The notes under the pieces: generated by a model
Database searches by the model: none
Told to the model about the DNA's origin: nothing
The model's input: the letters and a program-made list of their open reading frames with translations, nothing else
Shown: positions 5,279 to 36,181 of the stretch, piece after piece
Position numbering within the stretch: the stretch's first letter is position 1
Layout: every line of letters starts with the position of its first letter
NCBI RefSeq assembly: GCF_900626155.1
Contig: NZ_LR130844.1
Span: 1,054,277-1,118,276, forward strand
Source of the DNA: Anaerococcus vaginimassiliensis
GTDB taxonomy: Bacteria > Bacillota > Clostridia > Tissierellales > Peptoniphilaceae
Direction of reading: 5' to 3'
DNA length: 64,000 bases
Made by a program: the position numbers and the translations under genes

Positions 5279-5378
5279 GTGCCCCAAAATAGGAGAGATT
5301 TATAGAACTCTATAGCTTTAATGTTATTATTTTTTTAAGACTTACTTATGTAAATTATTAAAAATGGCAAAAAAATAA

Positions 5379-5614
5379 GACTACCAAAAGGTAGCCTTAG
5401 AGCATAGACAAAATCCAAAAACGCTTACTAAGCTGCAGAAATTTAGAAATTCTAAATCTCATAATACTGTAAATCGCAAACTCGCCAATGCTCAAACAGT
5501 GCGATTTACAGACGCATTATTTCGATTTGAATTTCTTAAAATTTCTTCCGAATGGAACGCTTCCTTTTGGATTTTGTAACTTTGTCAACAGTCTGAGACT
5601 ACCCAAAGGTAGTC
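5379..5614 (-). terminator. xpt terminator with duplicated hairpin, interrupted by a 200-bp palindromic insert
   Basis: Read on the minus strand after the xpt stop there is a first hairpin GACTACC/GGTAGTC (5597-5614), then the palindromic element, then a second near-identical hairpin (5379-5396) followed by a run of T (complement of 5371-5375 and beyond). The T-run needed for termination is only next to the distal copy. This is what is expected if an element inserted beside the terminator and duplicated its hairpin. Confidence 0.7.
5397..5596. repeat. Palindromic repeat element, copy A (200 bp)
   Basis: Near-identical to 35494-35691. The ends carry a perfect inverted repeat ACAAAATCCAAAA (5408-5420) and TTTTGGATTTTGT (5565-5577). 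A second stem pairs 5467-5477 with 5501-5511 (CTGTAAATCGC/GCGATTTACAG), and intermediate arms (about 5436-5459 with 5523-5549) pair with small bulges, so the whole unit can fold into one long hairpin around a 23-base loop. It has no coding capacity. It looks like a MITE-like or structured-RNA element. See the findings for comparison with copy B. Confidence 0.8.
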
Positions 5615-5620
5615 TATATA

Positions 5621-33862: not shown

Positions 33863-35455
33863 ATGTACAAATTTAATAAAAACATTATTAATAAAATCAA
33901 TGAAAATAAGTATGTGAAAAAGACCAGAAAGAGTTTGGGAAGTTTGATCTTCTCCCGTGTTGGACTTTTTGTATTTCTAATACTTATACAACTGGGGCTA
34001 ATGGTCTACTTTTATCATTATCTAAAGGTAGATTCAACTTATCTTGTGGGTGGAGATACAGCATCCAAACTTTTGATTATGCTCATAATTCTTAATATGG
34101 AAGAAGTCTCCAATTCTAACAAGCTTTCTTGGTTTTTGCTTATTGCACTTGTTCCAACATTTGGAATCATTGCATTTTTGATGAGTCACTTTTCTATTGG
34201 CTATAGGAGGGAGCAAAGAAAAGTTTTAAAGCTAAATAATGATTCCAGAGCCTACACAGATCTTGACGATAAGCTAGAAAAGATGATAAAAAATAGAGAA
34301 GAAAGATTTTATCCAATAGCCAAATATTTAGATGATGTTGGCGGATTTCCTACATACAAAGATACATCTTCAACATATTTTAAGGTAGGAGATGATATGT
34401 TTGAAGCGATGCTAAAAGACGTAAAAAACGCCAAGGACTTTATCTTCATGGAGTTTTTCATAATAGATTATGGATATATGTGGGGGACTATACTTGAAGA
34501 GTTAGTTAAAAAAACTAAAGAGGGAGTAGAAGTTAGACTTTTAATTGATGGATCAAACTTGATTACCAGAGTTAAATCTAATTTCCCAGAGGAGATGGCA
34601 AGTCTAGGTATAGAATGTAGGGTGTTTTCTAAGATGTATCCTATAGTATCAACCTATCAAAACAACAGAGACCACAGGAAAGTTATGGTAATAGATGGCA
34701 AATGTGCCTATACCGGAGGGATCAATCTTTCTGATGAATACATAAATGTATATGAAAGATTTGGCCACTGGAAAGATTGCGGTGCACGACTAACAGGAAG
34801 TGCAGTCAAATCTTTTGCAATTATGTTTTTAAATATGTGGAACTCTATAGATAAAGAGGCGGAAGATTACACACCTTACCTAAAGACTTATCCTCAAACA
34901 GAAGGTAAAGGCTTATATATTCCTTTTGCAGACAATCCTTTGGACAATGAAACTATCTCAAAAAATGTCCTTATTGATATAATTAACAAGGCAAAGACCT
35001 ATGTATATCTTATGAGTCCGTATTTAATAATAGATGAGGAAATTAGAAATGCAATAAAGCTTGCCTCCAAATCAGGCATAGATGTCAGAATCTGCCTACC
35101 TCATATACCAGATAAGAAGATTTCTTTTGCCCTAGCCAAAGACCACTACGAAGGAATGCTTGAGGCGGGAGTTAGGATATTTGAATATACACCAGGCTTT
35201 GTTCATTCAAAGACTTGGCTTGCCGATGATAGTATTGGCTTTGTTGGAACAATTAACCTTGACTACAGAGCACTTTATCAAAACTTTGAGTGTGGAGTTT
35301 TGATGTATGAGTCAAATAGTTTGGTAGAAATTAAAAATGATTTTGACATTTTCTTTGAAATTGCAACTGAAATAAATATGGAAGATGCAAAAAATATATC
35401 TAAGGGTGAAAAGCTTCTAGCAAAAATTGCTAAACCATTTTCAGTTTTGATGTAG
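33863..35455 (+). CDS. cls: Cardiolipin synthase (Cls, phospholipase D family)
   Basis: 530-residue membrane enzyme that joins two phosphatidylglycerol molecules to make cardiolipin. Two N-terminal membrane helices (about 32-53 and 90-112), then two PLD catalytic HKD motifs: HRKVMVIDGKCAYTGG (first) and HSKTWLADDSIGFVGT (second). Length and layout match Firmicute ClsA. No ribosome-binding site precedes the ATG. The terminator after the gene is interrupted by a palindromic element. Confidence 0.95.
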   Translation: MYKFNKNIINKINENKYVKKTRKSLGSLIFSRVGLFVFLILIQLGLMVYFYHYLKVDSTYLVGGDTASKLLIMLIILNMEEVSNSNKLSWFLLIALVPTFGIIAFLMSHFSIGYRREQRKVLKLNNDSRAYTDLDDKLEKMIKNREERFYPIAKYLDDVGGFPTYKDTSSTYFKVGDDMFEAMLKDVKNAKDFIFMEFFIIDYGYMWGTILEELVKKTKEGVEVRLLIDGSNLITRVKSNFPEEMASLGIECRVFSKMYPIVSTYQNNRDHRKVMVIDGKCAYTGGINLSDEYINVYERFGHWKDCGARLTGSAVKSFAIMFLNMWNSIDKEAEDYTPYLKTYPQTEGKGLYIPFADNPLDNETISKNVLIDIINKAKTYVYLMSPYLIIDEEIRNAIKLASKSGIDVRICLPHIPDKKISFALAKDHYEGMLEAGVRIFEYTPGFVHSKTWLADDSIGFVGTINLDYRALYQNFECGVLMYESNSLVEIKNDFDIFFEIATEINMEDAKNISKGEKLLAKIAKPFSVLM

Positions 35456-35472
35456 AATTAAATATGATTTTT

Positions 35473-35718
35473 AGAACTCCGATATGGAGTTCTTAGAGCG
35501 TATACAAAATCTAAAAACGCTTACCCAACTACAGAAATTTAGAAATTCTAAATCTCATAATACTGTAAATCGCAAACTCGCCAATGCTCAAACAGTGCGG
35601 TTTACGGACGCATTATATCGATTTGAATTTCTTAAAATTTCTTTCGAATGGAACGCTTCCTTTTAGATTTTGTCACTTTGTCAACAGCCTTAGAACTCCG
35701 ATATGGAGTTCTTTTTTT
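35473..35718 (+). terminator. cls terminator with duplicated hairpin, interrupted by a 198-bp palindromic insert
   Basis: The hairpin AGAACTCC-GATAT-GGAGTTCT occurs at 35473-35493 and again, identical, at 35692-35712; only the second copy is followed by the T-run (35712-35718). Extending the comparison, 24 bases are identical (35471-35494 and 35690-35713). This is a duplicated target around the inserted repeat. Confidence 0.85.
35494..35691. repeat. Palindromic repeat element, copy B (198 bp)
   Basis: Aligns end to end with 5397-5596. The outer inverted repeat is ACAAAATCTAAAA (35504-35516) with TTTTAGATTTTGT (35661-35673): one base pair differs from copy A on both arms (C-G in A, T-A here), so pairing is kept. 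In the central stem, changes in the right arm (GCGGTTTACGG here) leave G-U pairs. The region of about 67 bases from CAGAAATTTAG to CAGTGCG is identical in both copies. Same strand orientation as copy A, but here the host gene is on the plus strand. Confidence 0.85.
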
Positions 35719-35797: not shown

Positions 35798-36181
35798 ATG
35801 TTTAATATAAATTATTCTTCTGAAGTACCTCTATACCAACAAATAGTTGAGCAAACCAAAGGAATGCTTGCGGCTGATTTATTAAAGGACGGGGACAAAT
35901 TTCCTTCTGTAAGAGAAATATCCAAAAGCCTTTCAATCAACCAAACTACAGTGTCTAAAGCCTTCAAGGAGTTAGATAGGCTAGGCATTATAGAAACTAA
36001 GCCTGGTATAGGTACTTTTATTAAAATTGATGAAGAAAAAATAGAAAATAGCAAGGAAGAGTTTAGCTTAAAACTTGAGGATGAATTTAAACAAGCAATA
36101 TTTTTGGGCTTTGACTTAGAAGAAATAAGTGAGCTTTACAAAAAAGTAGAAAGGAGTTTGTATGAAGATAAGGGCAAATAA
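35798..36181 (+). CDS. GntR family transcriptional regulator (YtrA subfamily)
   Basis: 127 residues: winged helix-turn-helix GntR domain (about 8-75, VPLYQQIVEQTKGMLAADLL, FPSVREISKSLSINQTTVSKAFKELD) and a short C-terminal dimerisation tail, the size typical of the YtrA group. These repress ABC-transporter operons, often those responding to cell-wall antibiotics (family knowledge). The ATG at 35798 follows GGAGGG; longer upstream readings run through the promoter. It overlaps the ABC ATPase gene by 20 bases. Confidence 0.9.
   Translation: MFNINYSSEVPLYQQIVEQTKGMLAADLLKDGDKFPSVREISKSLSINQTTVSKAFKELDRLGIIETKPGIGTFIKIDEEKIENSKEEFSLKLEDEFKQAIFLGFDLEEISELYKKVERSLYEDKGK

Follow-up and report, generated by a model that had tools for sequence, protein, structure and literature searches.

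For the IS1182 family of insertion sequences (IS), Siguier et al. are said to have given direct repeats of 0–60 bp in 2015, and the length of a target-site duplication (TSD) is usually taken as a fixed signature of the transposase.

IS1272 and TnSha1, staphylococcal members of the IS1182 family, use inverted-repeat targets of varied sequence and length, and palindromic targets have been noted for some IS1182 members (Siguier 2015, as cited in PMC5678879 and PMC4923244). In the available text of these sources, Furi et al. (2016) describe partial deletion of the hairpin without duplication and identify hairpins A–E as terminators by RNA-seq, and Wan et al. (2017) assign IS1272 to pathway a, in which the hairpin is lost, with duplication of the whole hairpin as the hypothetical pathway b. 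The elements described below resemble IS1272/TnSha1, as far as the available text goes, in their IS1182 relationship and in their varied inverted-repeat targets, several of which are confirmed terminators in the staphylococcal case (PMC5678879, PMC4923244). They differ in that the hairpin is duplicated here, whereas the same text describes its removal or partial deletion without a TSD.

Three other systems share part of this behaviour. MITEPye1 of Paracoccus yeei is likewise short and non-autonomous, with IS1182-like terminal inverted repeats (TIRs) and direct repeats, but its copy number is 1–3, and the accessible portion of the report mentions neither a hairpin target nor a hairpin-sized repeat (PMC11578231). 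The IS1202 long-TSD group makes similarly long TSDs of 16–28 bp but, in the excerpted description, has TGT...ACA ends, a TnsB-like transposase and, according to its authors, no conserved target (PMC10132070). Some IS110/IS1111 elements target foldable DNA (attC, REP), and members occur here at terminators and inside the short elements; they differ, in the portions available, by an RNA-guided DEDD enzyme and by IS1111 junctions without added bases, and are only hitchhikers here (PMC11187229, PMC11208160).

Hairpin targeting by IS1182 members is known already; in the elements described here, duplication of whole hairpins is widespread and accompanied by a family of short derivatives. Among the openly accessible papers listed in literature searches, none described an IS1182 element that naturally duplicates a whole hairpin or a TSD length set by a palindrome.

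Copy B at the cls-like terminator

The window, the whole stretch of DNA that was analysed (64,000 nucleotides from Anaerococcus vaginimassiliensis), contains the following features.

5378..5397, left copy of a different hairpin at copy A
5398..5595, + strand, copy A of the element (L007)
5596..5615, right hairpin copy at copy A, 18/20 identical to the left copy
33863..35455, + strand, cls-like gene whose terminator is the target (PLDc_2 E 3.2e-36, PLDc E 3.5e-15)
35473..35493, + strand, left TSD, the upstream terminator stem-loop copy without its former T-run
35494..35691, + strand, copy B, a 198-bp non-autonomous MITE-like element without genes, its left terminus resembling the IS right end
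35494..35508, + strand, left TIR of copy B (12/16 with the right end of the G009 IS1182)
35504..35516, + strand, subterminal inverted repeat arm of copy B, listed by the first-pass annotation (partner arm 35661–35673)
35677..35691, − strand, right TIR of copy B (13/16 with the left end of the G009 IS1182)
35692..35712, + strand, right TSD, the downstream terminator stem-loop copy followed by a T-run (35713–35718), a terminator-like site
35798..36181, + strand, downstream GntR-family regulator gene (PF00392 E 6.7e-12)

The first-pass annotation had placed copy B in a cls terminator between two identical stretches of 24 bases, and both points were borne out. The repeat (35471–35494 and 35690–35713) is exact, and no other direct-repeat family of 12 nt or more was reported between 35300 and 35900. 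The upstream gene encodes the PLD domains expected for cls. Of the two hairpin copies, only the downstream one, together with its T-run, scores as an intrinsic terminator. Boundaries set by the genus consensus give an element of 198 bp and a TSD of 21 bp (35473–35493 and 35692–35712). In copies from other genomes of the genus, the TIR is CAGAGYGTAGACAAA...TTTGTCAACAGTCTG and directly abuts the hairpins. The ends originally proposed, ACAAAAT...ATTTTGT, are present but are subterminal and belong to this subfamily. The outermost bases of the element are C and G in the consensus and T at both ends of copy B. In this genome T is frequent at the left end: six of seven aligned copies begin with T and one with C. 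The last base is G in five.

Folded as RNA, the insert of copy B pairs end to end (−45.1 kcal/mol, z −4.47), and 0 of 200 shuffles folded as well. An Rfam search of the whole window gave 0 matches at the gathering score, and the weak matches were taken as chance.

Further copies, for which the first-pass annotation had suggested searching, were found: the insert has 12 matches at 90–100% identity in the 1.84-Mb genome. By inspection, nine of them (L001, L002, L003, L005, L006, L007, L008, L009 and L010) have recognisable local hairpin copies on both sides, diverged or partial at L006, L008 and L010, and three (L004, L011 and L012) have no recognisable flanking hairpin copies.

Most relatives with both neighbouring genes in reach have the site without the element. 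The downstream gntR-type gene was found in 27 of 31 Anaerococcus genomes, this one included, and at 17 of these loci (16 relatives and our own) both cls and gntR homologues lay in the examined stretch. Twelve of the 16 relatives have a cls–gntR gap of 105–174 bases with one terminator stem-loop and no TIR pair, which is the one-hairpin empty site that had been anticipated. In two others (L308 and L309) the gap is longer and contains other sequence but no TIR pair. The remaining two, L318 (G006) and L322 (G009), come from two other species and carry a TIR pair of the same kind; because both lie in the same intergenic region, the cls terminator may have been hit repeatedly. The hairpins flanking L318 are diverged and are not clear copies of each other; the sequence downstream of L318 also occurs at L319 and L323, which lack the insert.

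Hairpin-sized duplications around short copies in Anaerococcus

Matches to the element at E ≤ 1e-5 occurred in 17 of the 31 genomes, including the own genome. In G004, 57 right-end matches were detected at no more than two mismatches, against 0 for the reversed control pattern; the elements there have different interiors and lengths of about 170, 255, and 206 to 422. From 140 loci picked for holding such ends, we obtained 102 distinct short copies, defined by both TIRs with at most five mismatches in total and a length of 131–459.

A TSD score of at least 8 was obtained for 77 of these 102 copies, compared with 0.2% in 200 permutations of the right flanks among copies. No clear TSD was found in 25 (24 of 101 when one copy containing N was left out afterwards; n = 101). 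The TSDs are 14–26 bp long, most of them 16–22 bp, and most have A as first and T as last base. When the empty site was reconstructed, 63 of the 77 had a dyad centre no more than 0.5 base away from the TSD centre, and the flanking repeat read better as direct in 83 of 101 copies (inverted 6, tie 12). TSD positions pair across the dyad at 73%, against 29% in shuffled sequence. Pairing is 71% at the TSD edge and 70% just outside it, then falls to 52–62%; this lack of a sharp foot arises because the terminators stand between A and T tracts. The first-pass annotation had read the repeat at copy B as a TSD holding the whole hairpin, and both the permutation result and the empty sites support this.

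Several loci merit separate mention. At L188 and L089, the flanking hairpins are mutually reverse complementary in the loop (24 and 22 matched bases when read as inverted), as if the element had flipped between its hairpins. The MITE core CGCAAACTCGCT...GCTCAAACAGTGCG is found in different surroundings at L046 (G027) and L047 (G025), which suggests that the core predates these ends or is more widely distributed. L126 (G003 C1:358800–361600) is a unit of ~1.85 kb between these TIRs and similar hairpins, and its frames resemble an IS3-type element. A regulator/kinase segment between two TIR ends (L127, G003) was rejected as one element because the hairpins at its ends are unlike, and end-like matches at L031 lie inside coding genes and were taken as chance.

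Autonomous IS1182 elements and the length of the duplication

When ends in G003 were paired up, they led to L138 (C2:73000–76700), in which CAGACTGTAGACAAAG is followed by a 501-aa frame. The frame scored 436 bits against the NCBIfam IS1182 model NF033551 (cut-off 270), its Pfam domains are DUF772, DDE_Tnp_1_6 and DDE_Tnp_1, and an identical 19-bp hairpin stands on both sides of the locus. No right TIR is recognisable (about 1690–1715), so this copy seems shortened and may have moved using a cryptic end. Relatives of the L138-type transposase at E ≤ 1e-20 occur in 9 of the 31 genomes, and the family model matches in 15. The own genome has no IS1182 match to the transposase protein (E ≤ 1e-20) or to NF033551 (E ≤ 1e-5); a non-autonomous derivative can persist after its enzyme has been lost. 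G001, G005, G012 and G027 contain another group of IS1182 transposases, about 523 aa long, which is multi-copy in G005 and G012.

Five IS1182 copies of 1597 bp, one with an internal stop, were found in G009 with hairpin TSDs of 21–26 bp. Their left end agrees with the MITE right end at 15/16 bases in copy A and 13/16 in copy B, and their right end with the MITE left end at 12/16 in both. Crossed comparisons gave 10–12 of 16; for copy A the IS right end agrees as well with one MITE end as with the other (12/16 each). Past base 16 only 3–5 of 14 bases agree, which amounts to no similarity. The MITE and IS1182 are thus linked by their near-identical termini and behaviour, not by their interiors, and copy B shares its termini with IS1182, as an IS1182-derived MITE would, over the terminal 16 bases. 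The first-pass annotation had proposed looking for an autonomous element with the same ends carrying a transposase, recombinase or reverse transcriptase. IS1182 elements with very similar ends of 15–16 bases answer this description, and the enzyme is a DDE transposase of that family rather than a recombinase or reverse transcriptase. IS1202, suggested by the long TSD, was ruled out because the element ends are CAGA...TCTG and not 5′-TGT...ACA-3′; a single strong ISNCY/IS1202-like element turned up in the genus, in G021, and its TGT ends are unlike those of the MITEs.

When an alignment of three transposases was used to scan named genomes, the best 80 of at least 90 relatives were obtained; those listed came from Peptoniphilus, Clostridium, Caloramator, Thermobrachium, Paenibacillus, Cohnella, Oceanobacillus and others. 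We tested 75 loci (70 of the best 80 and the five of G009), and both TIRs were present in 51. Among these copies, drawn from the matches listed plus G009, 45 of 51 have a TSD of 17–52 bp and six have none. Duplicated hairpins thus flank 77 of the 102 short copies and 45 of the 51 autonomous ones, a pattern unlike the IS1272-type replacement, in which the hairpin is lost and no TSD is made.

The targets of the 45 autonomous copies (again from the matches listed plus G009) are palindromic. The palindrome centre coincides with the TSD centre in 44 of 45, and 91% of TSD positions are paired, against 30% after shuffling. Over the eight positions just within the TSD edge, 87–100% are paired, compared with 38–73% over the eight beyond it. 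A–T pairs make up 180 of the 185 pairs outside the TSD, and 21 of the 45 copies have no pair directly outside it. The mismatch-tolerant palindrome span correlates with TSD length (Spearman 0.57, n = 45), only moderately, since A and T tracts extend the pairing.

The strongest result of the analysis is the series from Clostridium carboxidivorans P7. The eight copies among the matches listed have a pairwise identity of at least 99.26%, and their TSDs are 18, 22, 27, 36, 36, 37, 41 and 52 bp long. The bases that immediately flank the TSD are unpaired in 8 of 8 copies. Nearly identical IS copies thus have TSDs of very different length, each ending where the pairing ends, and hence the target fixes the length. 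A single IS with such palindrome-long duplications departs from the fixed TSD signature.

A proposed structure-guided route of insertion and its alternatives

We consider it very likely that copy B is a short non-autonomous element derived from IS1182 and that an IS1182 DDE transposase, acting in trans, inserted it. Such an enzyme would select palindromes, for the most part intrinsic terminators, by their structure. As is established for DDE transposases, both 3′ ends of the element become linked to the two target strands, and the spacing of the joints equals the TSD. In the proposed route, the two ends of the element would be joined at both feet of the stem-loop, one per strand, and repair would therefore leave a complete hairpin on each side. 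The stem-loops were probably extruded as cruciforms when attacked, with the 5′ feet as the likely joining points. Because the feet of a cruciform are spatial neighbours at any arm length, this would give a simple reason for a TSD that is variable yet exact. To judge from the shared termini, an IS1182 enzyme presumably moved copy B itself, though it is absent from the genome today. The duplicating mode would keep an intact terminator behind the element, and the surviving downstream terminator is predicted to make the insertion of copy B nearly harmless.

On balance, we also favour extending this to a wide IS1182 clade, whose enzymes would be guided by structure and dock on an extruded hairpin or cruciform. 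The TSD (17–52 bp) would be set by the geometry of the target rather than by the enzyme, a working terminator would be left behind, and short derivatives would use the same safe, sequence-independent niche. The range of TSD lengths left by one IS makes the proposed and apparently undocumented duplication pathway directly testable. A hairpin-duplicating IS would also provide a natural means of probing cruciform extrusion in living cells, and the findings suggest that mobile elements can land harmlessly in terminators without reading sequence.

The alternative that survives best, though we regard it as unlikely, is that the hairpin is read in nascent RNA or in single-stranded replicating DNA and not in a cruciform. 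With the terminus resembling the IS right end set at the left, 26 short copies have just a T-run, past the right TSD, 7 have just an A-run, ahead of the left TSD, and 44 of 77 have both; this asymmetry indicates that the orientation of short copies is not random. The autonomous copies are, by contrast, nearly balanced (12 versus 8, both 18, neither 7; n = 45 among the matches listed and G009). The first-pass annotation had inferred an enzyme recognising a hairpin in DNA or nascent RNA. That TSD length tracks the palindrome fits recognition of DNA structure; nascent RNA is not needed to account for it, although it may be involved.

Much less probable is a long fixed stagger of ~20 bp with a preference for symmetric sequence, which terminators would merely fit. 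The narrow range of most short-copy TSDs and their usual A and T at the outer positions agree with it, but the C. carboxidivorans copies contradict it, as one IS would not make duplications of such different lengths, each bounded by the end of pairing. We likewise give almost no credence to the view that both hairpins pre-existed or belong to the element, without target duplication: some short copies do stand between two unlike hairpins (e.g., L180, L190 and L219), but hairpins differ between sites and match within a site, as the first-pass annotation held in ascribing them to the host, and relatives have one hairpin; neither a constant association of hairpins and insert in relatives nor a hairpin belonging to the element was found.

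Mobilisation of the family by the IS110 DEDD element found inside related G004 MITEs is hardly credible either. Units with these TIRs do carry an IS110 gene between duplicated hairpins, but the DEDD transposase is not at the MITEs' own ends; the IS110 is nested, occupying the same site within MITEs of more than one subtype, and other genomes show it with ends of its own. The IS110-family elements within MITEs are L070, L071 and L072 in G004 and L132 and L133 in G003. All three G004 copies have the junction CTCGAAA|TGGG, and as their host MITEs are of different subtypes, the IS110 seems to target the MITE. IS110 relatives about 55% identical are present in other Anaerococcus genomes (L094, L095, L096, L106 and L118), and by eye these start in the T-run right behind terminator-like hairpins, without duplication.
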